From the NCBI GenBank assembly GCA_021816585.1, contig JAKAXL010000012.1:1-64000 (forward strand): DNA of 64,000 nt. The letters run 5' to 3'. Shown here in pieces: positions 18,507 through 40,089 of the stretch. Below the pieces are notes generated by a model. It was given only the letters and a program-made list of their open reading frames with translations, was not told the origin of the DNA and made no database searches. The position numbers were made by a program, and so were the translations under genes. Origin of the DNA: Pseudomonadota bacterium. Lineage in GTDB: Bacteria > Pseudomonadota > Gammaproteobacteria > Burkholderiales > Burkholderiaceae_C. Every line of letters begins with the position of its first letter. Within the stretch, counting starts at the first letter, position 1.

Positions 18507-19787
18507 TCAGGACGGGAACGCCAGGCGCCCCAGCAGCGCCAGCCGGGCCGCGCCGAAGGCGGCCTGCGGGTGGCGGGCGCGGCGCACCGGCAGGCCCAGC
18601 GCCCGCTGGCGCAGCAGGGTCCACGCCGGGTTGGCGGCGCCGCCGCCGCTGCTCAGCACCTCGGAGGGAGCGGGCGCGCCGAGTTCGGCGAGGCGCCGGT
18701 AGCCGGCGGCCTCGATGCGTGCCAGCGCCTGCAGCAGGCCGTGCAGGTACTGCACGTCGTCGGCCGGGCGCGGCTGCAGCCGCGGTTGCCTCGACGGGTC
18801 CGCGTCGGGAAAGCGCTCGCCGGGGGCTGCCAGCGGGTACAGGTCGAGCGGGCTGTCCTGCCCGGCATCGATGCGCGCGCTGAGTTCGCGCAGCCGCGCA
18901 TCGTCGAACAGCCGCCGCAGCACGGCGCCTCCGCAGTTGCTCGCGCCCGACACCAGCCATAGCGAGCCGAAGCGGTGACTGTACACGCCATGCCGCGCGG
19001 AATCGATGCGCCGCGGCGACAGCAGCTTGAGCGTCAGGGTGCTGCCCAACGTGCTCAGCGCCTGCCCGGCCGCGCGGGCCCCGCCGGCGAGGAAGGCGGC
19101 GTTGGAGTCGGTCGTGCCGGCCAGCAGCTGCAGCCCCGCCGGCAGCTCGAGCCGGCGCGCCAGCGCCGGGTCGATGCGCCCCAGCCGGGTGCCCGGGGCG
19201 ACGATGCGTGGCAGGCGGCCTGCGAATTCCTGCGCGCGCGCCAGAGCGCCCCAGTCGGCGCGCAGCGGATCGCCGCCGGTCTTCAGCGCGTTGTGCCAGT
19301 CGGTGGTGACGCCGCGCCGCCCGATGTCGCCGAGCAGCGACGCGACCAGCCAGTCCGCCTGGTGCATCGGGTAGGCGTCGCGCAGCGCGTCGGGCCCGAG
19401 TTCGCGCCACAGCCACGTCAGCCGAGCCAGCGCGTCCGACGGGCCCGCGCTCGGGGCGGCGGCGGCCAGGGCGTCGTCGCGCCGTTCGAAATACATCAGC
19501 ACCGGGCCCCGCGGCCGCAGCCGGGAATCCGCCCACACCACGCTGCCGGAGGTCGCGCACAGCGACAGCCTGCGCAACTCGCGGCGCAGCGGCGCAGGAA
19601 TCGAGGCCAGCAGCTCCAACAGCGCCCGGCGCCACTCCGTGCAGCCCTGCTCGCGCGGGCGCGCGTAGGCCACCGCCGCCTCGAACACACAGTGCTCGCG
19701 GCGGTCGACCACGCACACGCGCGCGCCGCTGGTGCCGAAATCCAGTCCGGCGGCCAGCCGGGGCAGGGCGCCGGGGCCGGGGCTCAC
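18507..19787 (-). CDS. FGGY-family carbohydrate kinase
   Basis: 426 aa. The chosen start is GTG 19787, which overlaps the stop of the upstream hsp20 gene as GTGA and leaves the phosphate-binding GLDFGTSGARV at residues about 13-23; longer starts would run inside hsp20. The ASKHA fold is supported by AGTTDSNAAFLAGG, carrying the conserved catalytic Asp, and by the C-terminal SSGGGAANPAWTLLRQR. The short length and TDW/DSNA features resemble the D-ribulokinase/xylulokinase-like subgroup. It phosphorylates an unidentified sugar or polyol. Its translation depends on a heat-shock gene, an odd context for a sugar kinase, with no transporter or isomerase nearby. Confidence 0.85.
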   Translation of the reverse strand: MSPGPGALPRLAAGLDFGTSGARVCVVDRREHCVFEAAVAYARPREQGCTEWRRALLELLASIPAPLRRELRRLSLCATSGSVVWADSRLRPRGPVLMYFERRDDALAAAAPSAGPSDALARLTWLWRELGPDALRDAYPMHQADWLVASLLGDIGRRGVTTDWHNALKTGGDPLRADWGALARAQEFAGRLPRIVAPGTRLGRIDPALARRLELPAGLQLLAGTTDSNAAFLAGGARAAGQALSTLGSTLTLKLLSPRRIDSARHGVYSHRFGSLWLVSGASNCGGAVLRRLFDDARLRELSARIDAGQDSPLDLYPLAAPGERFPDADPSRQPRLQPRPADDVQYLHGLLQALARIEAAGYRRLAELGAPAPSEVLSSGGGAANPAWTLLRQRALGLPVRRARHPQAAFGAARLALLGRLAFPS

Positions 19788-20170
19788 TCGATGCGCACTT
19801 CGACGCGCCGCGGCTTCGCGTGCTCGGCCTTCGGGATGCGAAGCTCGAGCACGCCGTCCTTCATGCTCGCCTGGATGGCCGAGGAATCGAGCTCGCGCGA
19901 CAGCGTGAAGCTGCGCTCCCACGCTCCGCTGCGCATTTCCGCGTAGGTCGGCTCCATGCCTTGCGCCAGCGCGATCTGCACCTCGCCGCGCAGGCTCAGG
20001 CTGTCGCCTTCGACCTGCACCTGCAGTTGCTCGCGCGACACGCCTGGCATGTCGGCGCGCAGCGTGATGCCTTCGGCGTCCTCGAAGATGTCGACGTCCG
20101 GCGCCTGCGTGCGCGCGGCCCGCGCGGCGGCGGCCTGGGTTGCCGCGACCTGGGTGTTCGGGGTGTTCAT
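19784..20170 (-). CDS. Small heat shock protein (Hsp20/alpha-crystallin), class A
   Basis: 128 aa from ATG 20170, with AGGAG 9 nt before it. The alpha-crystallin domain runs from about residue 26 to 118 (VDIFEDAEGITLRADMPGV, ... MKDGVLELRIPK), and the Ala-x-x-x-Gly-Val-Leu motif is present. The C-terminal tail is short and the IxI anchor is replaced by RVEVRIE. It is an ATP-independent holdase. It is the second hsp20 in tandem, 41 bases after the first, and couples to the FGGY kinase. Confidence 0.93.
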   Translation of the reverse strand: MNTPNTQVAATQAAAARAARTQAPDVDIFEDAEGITLRADMPGVSREQLQVQVEGDSLSLRGEVQIALAQGMEPTYAEMRSGAWERSFTLSRELDSSAIQASMKDGVLELRIPKAEHAKPRRVEVRIE

Positions 20171-20211
20171 GGCCTTGCTCCTGGATGGGTCGTCAACTTG
20201 CGCGGATGCGT

Positions 20212-20658
20212 TCACTGCACGGCGATGCGCCGCGGCTGCACCGCTTCGCGCCGCGCGATGCTCACGCGCAGCACGCCGTCGGTGTAGCGCGCGTCGATCT
20301 TCGACGCGTCGACATCGTCGGGCAGGCTGATGACGCGGCGGAAGCTGCCGCTGTAGCGCTCCTCGGCATAGCGGGTCTGGCCCTTGGCGGGCTCGGGAAG
20401 CGCGCGCTTGCCCGCGATGCTCAGCAGGTTGTGGTCGACCGTCACCTCCAGTTGCGCGGGATCGATGCCCGGCGCGAAGGCGTAGACCTCGACGGCCTGC
20501 GCCGTGGTGCCGATGTTGATGGCCGGAAAACTCGCACCGCCGACGGCGCGAATGCTCACCGGCAGGCCCAGACCGCCAAAGCCGCGGTCGATGTCGCGCT
20601 GCAGGCGATCCAGCTCCGCGAACCAGCTCGCGGGGGTTCTCAGCAGGGTTGCCACCAT
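20212..20658 (-). CDS. Small heat shock protein (Hsp20/alpha-crystallin), class B
   Basis: 148 aa from ATG 20658, preceded by AAGGAG. The N-terminus MVATLLRTPASWFAELDRLQRDIDRGFGG matches the amphipathic start of many proteobacterial Hsp20s. The crystallin domain follows (PAINIGTTAQAVEVYAFAPGI, YTDGVLRVSIARRE). It differs strongly in sequence from the neighbouring Hsp20, as in two-component sHsp systems where the paralogues co-oligomerise. It is the first gene of the operon, with a candidate RpoH promoter upstream. Confidence 0.93.
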   Translation of the reverse strand: MVATLLRTPASWFAELDRLQRDIDRGFGGLGLPVSIRAVGGASFPAINIGTTAQAVEVYAFAPGIDPAQLEVTVDHNLLSIAGKRALPEPAKGQTRYAEERYSGSFRRVISLPDDVDASKIDARYTDGVLRVSIARREAVQPRRIAVQ

Positions 20659-20728
20659 GATGCTTGCTCCTTGCAGACGGGTTGGACGGCGGCGCCGGTG
20701 CGGCATGGCCGCGGCGCCCGACGACCCT

Positions 20729-20757
20729 TATCTGCGAGCCGGCGGCGGGATTTCAAG
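20729..20757 (-). promoter_or_regulatory. Candidate RpoH (sigma-32) promoter of the hsp20 operon
   Basis: On the minus strand CTTGAAA (20757-20751) is a full match to the sigma-32 -35 element. About 13 bases later, TCGCAGAT (20737-20730) is a partial match to the CCCCATnT -10. The -35 overlaps the feoC stop codon, so the hsp20 operon appears to be transcribed from the end of the feo operon. The -10 match is imperfect. Confidence 0.5.
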
Positions 20758-21130
20758 TCGCCGCTCGTGCGAGCGGCGATGGCGGCGGGAGCTGCCCCGC
20801 GGCGCCGAGGCCGAAGCAGGGTCGTTCCTGCCAGGCATAGCGCGCGCTCGCCGGCTCCCGGCGCGATCCGCAGCCGCCGCAGGCAGTGCAGGTGCCACCC
20901 GTGCAGGCGCCCCCGGAGCCGGCAGCGGCCTCGGCGGGCAGCGCCAGCACACGGCCGCGCCGCCGCCAGTGCTCGAGCATCGCCTGCACCACCGCCGGTG
21001 GGCGGCGCATGCGCCGCGCCAGCTGCTCCGCGCTGGCCGGGCCCTGCTGGCGCAGCACCTCGCGCAGCGCGAACAGCGGACTGCCGTGCCCGGCTTGCGC
21101 GACCGGGTGTGCGCTGGGTTCGTTGGTCAT
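20753..21130 (-). CDS. feoC: FeoC-like winged-helix protein with cysteine cluster
   Basis: 125 aa from ATG 21130, which overlaps the stop of a repeat-encoded mini-ORF (ATGA), with AGGAGG at 21139-21144. Residues about 18-62 (LFALREVLRQQGPASAEQLARRM, VVQAMLEHWRRRGRV) are the FeoC winged helix. Residues about 78-89 carry a C-x4-C-x2-C-x2-C cluster (CTGGTCTACGGC), the motif linked to Fe-S or redox sensing in FeoC. The tail after the cluster is longer than in E. coli FeoC (78 aa). It probably modulates FeoB at the membrane. It is the third gene of feoABC. Confidence 0.8.
   Translation of the reverse strand: MTNEPSAHPVAQAGHGSPLFALREVLRQQGPASAEQLARRMRRPPAVVQAMLEHWRRRGRVLALPAEAAAGSGGACTGGTCTACGGCGSRREPASARYAWQERPCFGLGAAGQLPPPSPLARAAT
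20759..20778. terminator. Hairpin at the end of feoC
   Basis: CGCCGCTCG (20759-20767) pairs with CGAGCGGCG (20770-20778); nine perfect pairs with a TG centre (7-8 usable). It is inside the last codons of feoC and immediately upstream of the hsp20 -35 element, so it may separate the two operons. No U tract. Confidence 0.35.
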
Positions 21131-21207
21131 GGAACGACCCTCCTCGCTACGCTCGACTCCCCGAGGGAGTGGAGCGCCGCTTCGGAGCGGCCGTGCGCGG
21201 CGCTCAT
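21127..21207 (-). CDS. 26-codon mini-ORF linking feoB and feoC, encoded by a repeat
   Basis: ATG 21207 overlaps the feoB stop (ATGA) and its own TGA (21129-21127) overlaps the feoC ATG (ATGA), so the three frames are chained. The peptide begins MSAAHGRSEAAL and ends ESSVARRVVP. It lies in repeat copy 1 plus the 11-base spacer. Within its last codons is AGGAGG (21139-21144), 8 nt before the feoC start. It has no membrane segment or known domain. The most likely role is termination-reinitiation or delivery of a ribosome binding site for feoC, not a functional peptide. A shorter version lies at 39317-39346. Confidence 0.5.
   Translation of the reverse strand: MSAAHGRSEAALHSLGESSVARRVVP
21128..21193 (-). 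repeat. 66-bp repeat, copy 1 (between feoB and feoC)
   Basis: Near-identical to the copy at 21205-21270, with two mismatches over 66 bases and an 11-base gap between copies. On the minus strand it starts CGGCCGCTCCGAAGCGG (a small hairpin), includes CTCCCTCGGGGAG (another small hairpin), and ends AGCGAGGAGGGTCGTTCCATG-like with the feoC start codon as its last three bases. Confidence 0.8.
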
Positions 21208-23597
21208 GGAACGACCCCCCTCGCTGCGCTCGACTCCCCGAGGGAGTGGAGCGCCGCTTCGGAGCGGCCGGGGGACCCCCGCCAGCGCAGCCCGCCGGCC
21301 ACCAGCCCCAGCGCCGCCGCGCAGGCGCCCAGCCATCCGGCCGAGCTGGCGGGGTGCGCGGAGAAGCTGCCGATCTGGTAGATCGAGGTCGCGCAGATCC
21401 ACGCCAGCAGCACCCCGTAGCCGACCGAGAAGGCCATCCAGCCCCAGCCCACCTCGCGGCGCAGCGCGCCCATCGTGCTGGCGCAGGGGACGTACAGCAG
21501 CACGAACACCAGGTAGCTGAAGGCCGACAGCGGGGTGAAGTCGCGACCCAGCCGCGCCAGGGTCCCCTGGCTGGCGCCCGAGGCCTCGACGGCGTCGCCG
21601 CGCGTGGCCAGCGAGCCCAGTCCCAGCGGGTCGGCCAGCGCGCCGACGAATTCGCGCGCGTTGTCCGGGATGGTCCGCACGGCAGCCAGCAACTGGCGGC
21701 CGATCTGCGGGTCGCGGAAGGACTGCAACTGCTGTTGCGCGTCGTCGCGCTGGTAGATGCCGTTGAGGGTCCCGATGACGATCTCCTTCGCCGCCGCGCC
21801 CGCCACCAGGCCGGCCACCGCGGGCCAGTTGTCGCGCTGCAGGCCCATCGGCGCGAACAGCGGCGCCAGGCCGCGGCTGGCCTGCGCCAGCAGCGAATGC
21901 TCGGTGTCGGTCGCACGCAGCCCCGACGCGGTCCAGCCGACCCCGGGCAGCAGGAACAGCACGACGGCGATCGCGGTGATCACCTTGCCGACGCGCCAGA
22001 CGAACACCTGCAGGCGTTGCCAGCTCTGCAGCAGCACGCTGCGCAGGCCCGGCACGCGGTACGGCGGCAGTTCCATCGCGAAGGGCAGGGGCTTGCCGCG
22101 CAGCGCGGTGCGGCCGAGCAGCCAGGCCGTCAGCAGCGCGGCGACGATGCCCAGCGTGTACAGCAGGAACACCACCTGCCCGCCGTTGTCGCGGAAGAAC
22201 ACGGCGGCGAAGGCCATGTAGATGGTCAGGCGCGCCGAGCACGACATGAAGGGCTGCACCAGCGCCGTCAGCAGCCGGCCGCGCGGCTCCTCGATGATGC
22301 GTGTGCCCATGATCGCCGGCACGTTGCAGCCGAAGCCGATGATCATCGGCACCAGCGAGTTGCCCGGCAGCCCGACCCGGCGCATCAGGCGGTCCATCGC
22401 GTAGGCCGCGCGCGCCATGTAGCCGGAGTCGTCGAGCAGCGCCAGCATCACGAAGGTCAGCGCGATCGGCGGGATGAAGGCGGCCACCAGGTGGACGCCT
22501 CCGCCCACTCCGCCGGCCAGCACGCCGGCCCACGCCTCGGGAACCCCCAGCAGCAACAGTCCATGGCCGAATCCGTCCACCGCGACGGCCTGCGAGGCCT
22601 GGTCGAAGAATCCCTGCAGCACCTTGCCGGCGTTGAAGCTGAACACGAACACCAGGTAGAGCACGCCGAGGAACACCGGGACGCCCAGCCAGTCGTGCAG
22701 CACGACGCGGTCGAGCGCGTCGGTGACGCGTCGGCGCACCGTGCCGGAGCGCGCACAGGGCTGCAGCACCGCGTCGCCGACGCGCTGCGCCCAGTCGAAG
22801 CGCTGTGCCGCGAGCAGGTCGGCGGGGGTCTCGCCGAAGCGTGCCCGAAGCCGCGCCTGCTGCTCGCGCAGGCGTTGCGCGAGCAGCGGCGAGTCCGGCG
22901 CGGCGTGGCCCTCCAGCAGGCGCAGCGCCTCGATGCGGCGGCGCGCCGTGCTCGCGCCGGGCAGCGCCGCCTCCAGCTGCGCGCAGGCCTGCAGCAACGC
23001 GGGCGCGGCGTCCAGCGGGGACGGCGCCGGCGTGGCTGCCAGCGGCGCCGACGCCTCCGGGACCGCGGCCCCCAGGGCCTGCGCGATGGCGTGCAGCAGG
23101 GCGTCGCGACCCTGCCCCTTGCGCGCGACCATCGGCACCACCGGCACGCCCAGGCGGCGCTCGAGCGCCCCGATGTCCGGCATGAGCCCGCCGGCGCGGG
23201 CCTCGTCGACCATGTTCAGCACCAGCAGCAGCCGGCAGCCGGCGTGAAGCAGTTCGGCGCTCAAGGCCAGGTGGCGCTCCAGGTTGGAGGCGTCGACGAT
23301 GTCCAGCACGAGGTCGGGCTGCTCGTCGAGCAGGAAGTCGCGGGCCACGCGCTGGTCCTCGCCGCCGCCGCCGAGCAGGCTGTACACCCCCGGCAGGTCG
23401 ACGACCCGGGCCTGCAGCCGCGGCAGGCGCAGCGTGCCGCTGCGCCGCTCGACCGTCACGCCGGGCCAGTTGCCCACATGCTGACGCGCTCCGGTGAGCA
23501 GGTTGAACACGGTGGTCTTGCCGCAGTTGGGGGCGCCGGCGAGGGCGATCACCGGAACGTGCCGGTGCGCGCGCGCCTGGGGGGAGGTGGTTGGCAT
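21204..23597 (-). CDS. feoB: Ferrous iron transporter FeoB
   Basis: 797 aa from ATG 23597. The N-terminal G domain has G1 GAPNCGKTT (residues about 21-29), G2 GVTVERR, G3 DLPG and G4 NMVD. A GDI-like helical region follows (about 200-285), then the polytopic core with two Gate repeats (IGFGCNVPAIMGTRII, MSCSARLTIYM; and AGAAAKEIVIGTLNGIY). It takes Fe(II) across the inner membrane. The last ~21 residues are specified by the inserted repeat and are not part of the family, so the native C-terminus has been replaced or extended. It lies 19 bases after feoA. Confidence 0.95.
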   Translation of the reverse strand: MPTTSPQARAHRHVPVIALAGAPNCGKTTVFNLLTGARQHVGNWPGVTVERRSGTLRLPRLQARVVDLPGVYSLLGGGGEDQRVARDFLLDEQPDLVLDIVDASNLERHLALSAELLHAGCRLLLVLNMVDEARAGGLMPDIGALERRLGVPVVPMVARKGQGRDALLHAIAQALGAAVPEASAPLAATPAPSPLDAAPALLQACAQLEAALPGASTARRRIEALRLLEGHAAPDSPLLAQRLREQQARLRARFGETPADLLAAQRFDWAQRVGDAVLQPCARSGTVRRRVTDALDRVVLHDWLGVPVFLGVLYLVFVFSFNAGKVLQGFFDQASQAVAVDGFGHGLLLLGVPEAWAGVLAGGVGGGVHLVAAFIPPIALTFVMLALLDDSGYMARAAYAMDRLMRRVGLPGNSLVPMIIGFGCNVPAIMGTRIIEEPRGRLLTALVQPFMSCSARLTIYMAFAAVFFRDNGGQVVFLLYTLGIVAALLTAWLLGRTALRGKPLPFAMELPPYRVPGLRSVLLQSWQRLQVFVWRVGKVITAIAVVLFLLPGVGWTASGLRATDTEHSLLAQASRGLAPLFAPMGLQRDNWPAVAGLVAGAAAKEIVIGTLNGIYQRDDAQQQLQSFRDPQIGRQLLAAVRTIPDNAREFVGALADPLGLGSLATRGDAVEASGASQGTLARLGRDFTPLSAFSYLVFVLLYVPCASTMGALRREVGWGWMAFSVGYGVLLAWICATSIYQIGSFSAHPASSAGWLGACAAALGLVAGGLRWRGSPGRSEAALHSLGESSAARGVVP
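21205..21270 (-). repeat. 66-bp repeat, copy 2 (inside the 3' end of feoB)
   Basis: This copy supplies the last ~21 codons of feoB (tail GRSEAALHSLGESSAARGVVP in segments: GRSEAALHSL, GESSAARGVVP) and its stop. The ATG that ends copy 1 is here the start of the mini-ORF. The tandem arrangement suggests duplication of a mobile or REP-like element. Confidence 0.8.
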
Positions 23598-39316: not shown

Positions 39317-39346
39317 ATGAGCGTAGCGACGAGGATCGTGCCATGA
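39317..39346 (+). CDS. 9-codon mini-ORF joining purL to the DUF1624 gene
   Basis: ATG 39317 starts 4 bases after the purL stop; the peptide is MSVATRIVP and its TGA (39344-39346) overlaps the next gene start as ATGA. The nucleotide run GAGCGTAGCGACGAGG and the following ATCGT-GCCATGA match the 3' end of the feoB-feoC repeat (GAGCGTAGCGAGGAGG, GTCGT-TCCATGA), with GAGG again exactly 8 nt before the downstream ATG. It is probably a ribosome-handover element; the peptide itself is unlikely to matter. Confidence 0.45.
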   Translation: MSVATRIVP

Positions 39347-40089
39347 ACCCCGCACCGCGCTCGTACCGCTCGTCCCGCCTGGGCGGGCTGGACACGCTGC
39401 GCGGGCTCGCCATCGTCTGGATGGTGAGCTTTCATTTCAGCTTCGACCTGAACTGGTTCGGCTACATCCACACCGACTTCTACACCAACCCGGTGTGGCT
39501 GTGGCAGCGGGTGTGCATCGTCAGCCTGTTCCTGCTGAGTTCGGGGCTGAGCCAGGCGGTGAGCGATGCGCGCCGGCGCAGCGAGGCCGCGTTCTGGCGG
39601 CGCTGGGGGCAGATCTTCGGCGCTGGTCTGCTGGTGGTGGCCGGAAGCTGGCTGGTGTTTCCTCGCAGCTTCATCTATTTCGGCATCCTGCAGGGGGTCG
39701 CCGCCATGCTGCTGGTGCACCGCGCGATCGGGCGCCGGCTCGGCCCCTGGGTGCTGTTGCTGGCGCCGCTGCTGATCGCCGCACCGCATCTGTACGCATC
39801 GCCGCATTTCAACCCTCCGGCGTGGAACTGGACCGGGCTGATCACGCGCAAGCCGATCACCGAGGACTACGTCCCGCTGACGCCCTGGCTCGGCGTGTTC
39901 TGGATCGGCGCCGGCCTCGGCGCACTGCTGCGGCGGGTCGAACTGCGCCCGCTGCGCGCGCTGCCGCGGGTCGCCCCGCTGGCCTGGCTGGGTCGCTGGC
40001 CGCTGAGCATCTACCTGCTGCACCAGCCGATCCTCATCGGGCTGCTGTGGCTGGTGTCGCGCGCCATCGGGCATCCGGTGCCGTTCTAG
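39343..40089 (+). CDS. DUF1624/HGSNAT-like integral membrane protein
   Basis: 248 aa from ATG 39343. The N-terminus RLGGLDTLRGLAIVWMVSFHFSFDLNWFG fits the DUF1624 family (heparan-alpha-glucosaminide N-acetyltransferase catalytic-like), with the conserved Asp-x-x-R-G near the first membrane segment and a His in it. Six to seven hydrophobic helices follow, including VCIVSLFLLSSGLSQAV, WVLLLAPLLIAAPHLY and APLAWLGRWPLSIYLLHQPILIGLLWLV. It may transfer acyl groups across the membrane, but the substrate is unknown. It is linked to purL by the mini-ORF and so may be co-translated with it. Confidence 0.8.
   Translation: MNPAPRSYRSSRLGGLDTLRGLAIVWMVSFHFSFDLNWFGYIHTDFYTNPVWLWQRVCIVSLFLLSSGLSQAVSDARRRSEAAFWRRWGQIFGAGLLVVAGSWLVFPRSFIYFGILQGVAAMLLVHRAIGRRLGPWVLLLAPLLIAAPHLYASPHFNPPAWNWTGLITRKPITEDYVPLTPWLGVFWIGAGLGALLRRVELRPLRALPRVAPLAWLGRWPLSIYLLHQPILIGLLWLVSRAIGHPVPF

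Follow-up and report, generated by a model that had tools for sequence, protein, structure and literature searches.

Between feoB and feoC in a 64,000-nucleotide stretch of a Thiomonas-group genome (positions 1 to 64,000 of contig JAKAXL010000012.1, assembly GCA_021816585.1; hereafter the window), a short sequence is repeated head to tail and overlaps both genes. What is this repeat, and how can two adjacent genes accommodate it? It is very probably a non-autonomous, dispersed element of the window's family, the Burkholderiaceae in the wide sense, akin in kind to the mycobacterial interspersed repetitive units (MIRUs). The family placement follows from Thiomonas sp. FB-6, a member of the window's genus. 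The element appears to be seated at 4-nt ATGA or GTGA overlaps and to contain a mini open reading frame (mini-ORF) through which ribosomes would be passed on. The parts of the junction are as follows.

21204..23597, minus strand: feoB, a 797-aa open reading frame (ORF) (PF02421 FeoB_N 1.4e-54, PF07664 1e-21, TIGR00437)
21204..21270, minus strand: first copy in reading order (97% identity with the second), corresponding to element positions 15-81
21204..21207, minus strand: ATGA in which the feoB stop and the mini-ORF start overlap (from the sequence)
21127..21207, minus strand: complete element, the second copy, with the mini-ORF MSAAHGRSEAALHSLGESSVARRVVP* and ATGA at either end
21139..21144, minus strand: Shine-Dalgarno sequence AGGAGG, 8 nt 5' of the feoC ATG (from the sequence)
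21127..21130, minus strand: ATGA in which the mini-ORF stop and the feoC start overlap (from the sequence)
20753..21130, minus strand: feoC, 125 aa (PF09012 FeoC 4.5e-12)

FeoB and FeoC are real genes by their Pfam matches; FeoC also matches NCBIfam PRK15431 weakly (3.3e-5, under the family cut-off). Both genes, the mini-ORF and both copies lie on the minus strand. The direct repeat (21127-21193 and 21204-21270) has 67 nt, 97% identity, two mismatches and a period of 77 nt, and its score of 274 in Tandem Repeats Finder is the highest of 15 window rows. An earlier interpretation of the letters alone (the sequence-only reading) had seen the two head-to-tail copies and their two mismatches correctly and had made them one nucleotide too short, at 66 bp. 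It was right that one copy supplies the end of feoB: the protein finishes in ...GRSEAALHSLGESSAARGVVP*, where the last 21 codons and the stop of the 797-aa ORF are supplied by the copy that is read first, which lacks the initial 14 nt of the element and is fused in frame to the feoB end. Its 26-codon ORF from the feoB stop to the feoC start was also found (21207-21127, 81 nt including the TGA, with ATGA at either end), as was AGGAGG, which a second reading places at 21144-21139, 8 nt ahead of the feoC ATG. What it had called a spacer is part of the element. Other copies include that stretch, so that the full element is 81 nt counting both ATGA, with a tandem period of 77 nt at this junction. 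No described RNA family in Rfam matches window positions 20000-22500, up to E 1.

The window's own genome (3.43 Mb in 131 contigs) contains 14 element matches at E <= 0.001, and the 3' part of the element alone, with up to three mismatches, occurs at 13 sites against none for the reversed pattern. Twelve of the 13 arrays end on an ORF start and one (L010) is fused in frame to an ORF. Among eight downstream proteins besides FeoC, seven match Pfam, each of another kind (SCP2, NUDIX, PqqD, Hpt kinase, HGSNAT_cat, LysE and AraC); the protein downstream of L026, cut by a contig end, has no Pfam match.

The arrangement extends across the genus. An 81-nt query matches 24/60 related genomes, 22 of the 28 within the genus when the window's own genome is counted. 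From these a set of 73 arrays with 122 copies in 11 genomes was assembled, made up of 60 stretches from ten relatives, chosen among the matches listed, and the 13 own loci; two spurious opposite-strand matches in L105 were removed, which reduced 124 rows to 122 copies. With no more than 15 candidates scored per genome in the 81-nt search and two per genome in another, copy numbers from these searches are lower bounds. Several contigs of G026, G027 and G017 start or stop in or beside copies (L076, L077, L080, L088, L105, L108 and L110), which indicates that the element breaks assemblies and that copy numbers from drafts are too low.

A right end was counted as a gene start where it opened an ORF of 70 codons or more whose codon score, a crude measure trained on ORFs from the same loci, exceeded 0.1. 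Four of the 73 right ends lie at contig edges, and 65 of the remaining 69 lead into a gene: 55 at an ORF start, eight in frame into the downstream ORF and two through a further mini-ORF (in L093 and L097 the array end starts a 9-codon ORF that itself ends in a gene's ATGA). On the left, 16 arrays open with a 5'-truncated copy and four lie at edges; in 42 of the 53 testable cases the TGA of the first ATGA terminates an upstream ORF of 80 codons or more. Arrays hold one to six tandem copies, and the junctions between these, which are not independent within an array, follow the same rule. Of 49, 22 have a period of 77 with an ATGA or GTGA stop/start overlap and 25 a period of 75 or 78, which keeps the frame; no period of 1 modulo 3 occurs among the 49. 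Translation of the 22/25 period-75 or -78 junctions that lie in arrays with a full first copy met no stop on read-through. Neighbouring and fused proteins gave Pfam matches in 19 of 20 tested. One of them (L127, genome G019) carries three copies fused in frame to the FeoB N-terminus (PF02421 1.7e-54), where the window has its fusion at the FeoB C-terminus. The sequence-only reading had supposed a portable start-codon cassette, and what follows the terminal ATG in the own genome (12/13 arrays at an ORF start, one fused) and over the 11 genomes (65/69) agrees with this, so that the supposition withstands the refuting check which that reading had itself set. That idea proves largely right, in that the copies are dispersed, run in gene sense and end on the starts of unrelated, real genes; its claim to novelty is taken up below.

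How far does the element range? An exact pattern demanding an ATGAGC start was found in 78/399 family genomes and 45/141 genera, with a reversed control of 0 in every row; being exact it misses diverged copies, and copy numbers from it are lower bounds. A scan of the class matched 2/369 genomes, both in the window's family, and 0/366 sampled outside it. Plasmid and phage collections contained no element match at E 0.01. From the other genera 30 loci were read, one per genome among the matches listed (30 genomes, 19 genera). In 23 the mini-ORF has its end within the next gene's ATGA or GTGA, and in seven it reads in frame into the next protein; none of the 30 is broken. A random frame would break about one third, giving 0/30 a chance of at most ~5e-6, a figure that shared descent makes optimistic. 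At 22 of these loci the first ATGA closes an upstream ORF (at least 80 codons, score above 0.1). Depending on the genus, the core is translated as HGRSE, ARPLRR or RTAARS. Since its nucleotides thus stand in different frames between genera, what is conserved is the frame relation of the ends, not the peptide.

Because the first pattern demands ATGAGC, the core alone was also searched for, as a ASCERTAINMENT control, in 20 genomes, giving 215 sites against 13 for the reversed pattern. In the sixteen of these genomes that have the ATGAGC type, at least 107/177 core sites are of that type; the remaining four hold 35 (G132), three (G242) or none (G315 and G109). All core sites were read in three genomes (22 in G248, ten in G294 and 11 in G276). 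In 38 of these 43, NTGA (a start with an overlapping stop) lies at most 14 nt before the core, and overlaps or fusion, as the script defines them, lead from 36 of the 38 into an ORF of at least 100 codons; for L274 and L302 this ORF has a negative codon score, leaving 34 credible. The copies seen in G132 and G242 are of a non-coding flavour, and at L204 and in G132 a repeat with the element's core and without the ATGA forms arrays with a period of ~108 nt. Read by the core only, the junction-seated form dominates in many genera, yet a non-coding cousin exists.

Did the element enter junctions that already existed? gatC was found in 26/28 genus genomes, and in 24 of these 26 the gatC stop and gatA start overlap in a bare ATGA (genes named by PF02686 and PF01425). 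One copy (G018) or five (G027) lie exactly within that ATGA in the other two. As the empty form is the rule, gain is probably the simpler reading. A livH-livM-like junction (PF02653 on either side) has no element in G018 but carries it in G027 and G026, and the flanks of filled and empty forms match up to the ATGA. The feoB-feoC junction itself is a bare ATGA in G026, G004 and G017, lacks an overlap in G015 and G005 and holds an apparently worn copy in G012. Before a ThiF gene, copies occur in G026 and G027, the short form described below in G018, and a GTGA overlap in G015, G005 and G017. These empty-site comparisons support insertion at a pre-existing ATGA overlap, although we infer the direction of change; the sequence-only reading had likewise supposed an insertion into the operon. 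ATGA flanks the element on both sides, as a target duplication would, but may be part of it. Crude gene calls put 190 ATGA sites in the window, counting both strands, with 16 in non-coding DNA, and show a 4-nt overlap in 9/33 same-strand gene pairs. An element needing only ATGA outside genes would thus land on an overlap about one third of the time, which points either to a narrower choice of target or to loss of copies elsewhere.

The short form has 30 nt and reads MSVARRVVP* or similar. Loss of 51 nt in frame from the full element, between two of its GAGCG words, would produce it. One example (L025) begins a gene of its own.

39317..39346, plus strand: short form of the element, mini-ORF MSVATRIVP*, ATGA at either end (from the sequence)
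39343..40089, plus strand: the gene begun by this short form, HGSNAT_cat, 248 aa (PF07786 3.8e-64)

Just downstream of feoC lie two neighbouring small heat-shock genes (window 19784-20706, minus strand; PF00011 in both).

What would the element do as RNA? In an alignment of 56 distinct copies (A1), covariation supports three local hairpins: 90.8% of cells are paired, 87 cells are changed on both sides against 29.5 in shuffled alignments and at most 24 with the partner slid, and the covariation score is 0.182 against 0.067. Two of the five covariation measures fail to exceed the shuffles clearly and are given with the other difficulties below. The third hairpin (helix 4; for example window 21140-21155) has a GNA loop (GTA or GCA) and a stem with tandem G.A mismatches in the window's flavour and Watson-Crick pairs elsewhere; two of its pairs are these mismatches, which brings its pairing to 70.7% of cells. 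Such hairpins have high stability as single-stranded DNA, which may hint at the mode of movement. The Shine-Dalgarno energy is stronger for the downstream gene than for the mini-ORF, both at 23 other-genera loci (-7.87 v -4.20 kcal/mol, p 7e-5) and in 41 genus arrays (-11.28 v -6.94, p 2e-6), with p values that are optimistic since the copies share descent.

Put together, these data suggest how an insertion could pass without harm. It would leave an ATGA on either side, so that the upstream gene retains its stop and the downstream gene its start, with a mini-ORF of mostly 20-28 codons between the two. A ribosome finishing the upstream gene would begin again on the mini-ORF and open the hairpins of the element on its way; having terminated in the second ATGA, it would start the downstream gene with the aid of the 3'-terminal Shine-Dalgarno sequence. 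Copies in tandem or of altered length would remain compatible, since almost all junctions are either stop/start overlaps or fusions in frame. This account draws on features evident at the sequence level, namely the location and orientation of the copies, the overlaps on both sides, the unbroken reading, the empty sites, the hairpin covariation and the Shine-Dalgarno sequence. The handover of ribosomes through the mini-ORF would follow from them, and insertion that is silent for translation may be the reason that these copies survive.

Several observations weigh against such a junction-seated, handover element. The copies are related by descent and the counts are not of independent events. Four of the 69 testable right ends fail or are weak: the gene starts 20 nt past the array end in L098 and 63 nt past it in L107, the downstream ORF of L105 has a weak codon score and none was found for L104. 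L104 also has both of the 2/49 tandem junctions with period 77 and ACGA, which are neither overlap nor frame. A convincing upstream stop is missing from 11/53 left ends (nine unconvincing, two with no stop there) and is unconvincing in 8/30 other-genera loci. At one of the seven in-frame loci (L211) the copy apparently lies inside a formyltransferase gene, as the Formyl_trans_N match begins only at profile position 98. Among the core sites, five of 22 in G248 have no NTGA and two finish without an overlap, and of the four genomes in which the 20-genome core search showed no ATGAGC type (G132, G242, G315 and G109), G132 is rich in core sites. Several relatives have CTGA, without an ATG/GTG overlap, before the ThiF gene. 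Lastly, the covariation measures not clear of the shuffles are the pairs with both-side change (6 vs 5.0, equalled in 35/500 shuffles) and the further pair types (15 vs 14.2, equalled in 197/500).

Could the repeat instead be a regulatory device selected at each site, its mini-ORF and hairpins acting as an attenuator that hides the downstream Shine-Dalgarno sequence until a ribosome passes? Folding of single copies favoured such a switch, the sequence being paired in the predicted fold of four of the five tried. The corresponding long fold pairs 88.0% of cells in the alignment and exceeds the shuffles on paired cells, both-side cells and covariation score. However, its both-side changes all fall in the hairpin that it has in common with the three-hairpin structure, the outer helix that would hide the Shine-Dalgarno sequence has none, and the three local hairpins outscore it. 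The element is also patchy at one junction (gatC-gatA is filled in 2/26) and its host genes are functionally mixed. With its distinctive helix lacking covariation the switch was set aside as the preferred model and is kept as a rival, one that we consider unlikely. A peptide-coding insertion of the kind found in Rickettsia, retained for its peptide, might explain the in-frame fusions to gene N-termini (eight genus arrays and 7/30 other-genera loci), the L211 copy apparently within a gene and the copy fused to the FeoB C-terminus. A peptide function was, however, rejected on the differing frames in which the core is read between genera (HGRSE, ARPLRR, RTAARS), and stem positions change jointly at the expense of amino acids, making this reading highly improbable.

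The hairpins, high copy number and arrays, together with the non-coding flavour that has the same core in G132 and others, would suit an ordinary extragenic palindrome of the repetitive extragenic palindromic (REP) or miniature inverted-repeat transposable element (MITE) type, at operon junctions by happenstance. We regard this as very unlikely, given that seating at junctions and unbroken reading are the rule. Furthermore, the window copy has no terminal inverted repeat (3/12 end positions agree), and the Y1 transposase PF01797 has no match in the copy-rich genomes G000, G026, G027, G017 and G018. PF01797 is present in 10/28 genus genomes, copy-rich G014 included, and has no match in the other 18, most of which are drafts. 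The REP-associated tyrosine transposase (RAYT) was accordingly rejected as the mover because PF01797 is missing from those five many-copy genomes. Chance, or a strong common ribosome-binding site, could produce the odd overlap, ATGA overlaps being common in the window (the nine of 33 pairs above); it is scarcely credible for 67-81 nt of identity, and is contradicted by the reversed-pattern controls (0 in the own genome, 0 in all 399 family-genome rows).

The MIRU-like, junction-seated element thus preferred has a precedent of its kind, at variance with the sequence-only reading, which held that no such element had been described. MIRUs are ~50-100 bp in size and have 'DTGA' target sites. As PMC12548453 presents them in the part that concerns these units, where Supply et al. 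(1997) is cited for them, MIRUs are apparently mobile and insert at start codons, with an internal ORF coupled to the gene at -4 nt, an arrangement that probably limits what insertion costs; the present element fits that description as a mobile-looking repeat at start codons whose internal ORF overlaps the gene by -4 nt. The senX3-regX3 junction contains three MIRUs of 77 bp, or else a pair of 77-bp units with a third of 53 bp, by the account in PMC4213456 of that locus, and the likeness extends to tandem copies between two genes with a 77-nt period. The placement in gene sense with overlap on both sides (65/69 right and 42/53 left ends), the -4 nt coupling (23/30 other-genera loci, the seven others in frame; 22/49 tandem junctions) and the insertion into pre-existing junctions (empty gatC-gatA and livH-livM-like sites, for which we infer the direction) are also traits of the MIRU kind. 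MIRUs differ in belonging to another phylum, and the likeness is drawn from descriptions, not from sequence homology. Relative to those descriptions, as far as the cited parts go, the present element has as extras three covarying hairpins, the 3'-end Shine-Dalgarno sequence, in-frame fusions and a core read in several frames.

Other known systems are less close. Rickettsia palindromic elements are small in-frame repeats within protein genes, said in the relevant portion of PMC10969869 to encode a conserved peptide; the frame of the present core varies instead and its usual site is a gene junction. REP/BIME sequences and RAYT-moved repeats are likewise high-copy hairpin repeats that form arrays, but are extragenic by name, and the present element occurs without PF01797 in five many-copy genomes. 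Enterobacterial RU/ERIC repeats, also small and mobile, lengthen ORF ends or create them, but are mainly intergenic, and the passages of PMC2759123 that treat them describe no stop/start overlap architecture. In engineered bicistronic designs a short leader ORF brings ribosomes past RNA structure, as outlined in PMC12548453, but these are man-made and immobile, whereas the present element sits between two natural genes. Stop/start overlaps and termination-reinitiation coupling are established in general (as introduced in PMC6728339). Titles and the starts of abstracts on repeats of Thiomonas, Burkholderiales or Comamonadaceae, or on MIRU-like elements in other organisms, with few subscription journals among them and hence weak evidence of absence, contained nothing recognisable as the present family. 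It seems to be undescribed, and we would call it a new MIRU-like family.

A bolder idea, offered tentatively and rather doubtful, is that the stop/start overlap itself is the target of an element class with separate origins in the mycobacteria and the present beta-proteobacterial family, spread by an enzyme into coupled junctions, where tandem copy number (1 to 6) would serve as a dial for protein ratios. For annotation, caution is needed in that some tiny ORFs and odd gene ends are element sequence, including the FeoB tail in the window and, elsewhere, the N-termini of ABC-transporter, MurG-like and RuvX-like proteins. For termination-reinitiation, a natural experiment is offered by gatC-gatA, where 0, 1 or 5 copies occur. 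More broadly, the findings suggest that a little-studied mycobacterial oddity may be one case of a wider strategy, by which mobile DNA enters operons without breaking translation.

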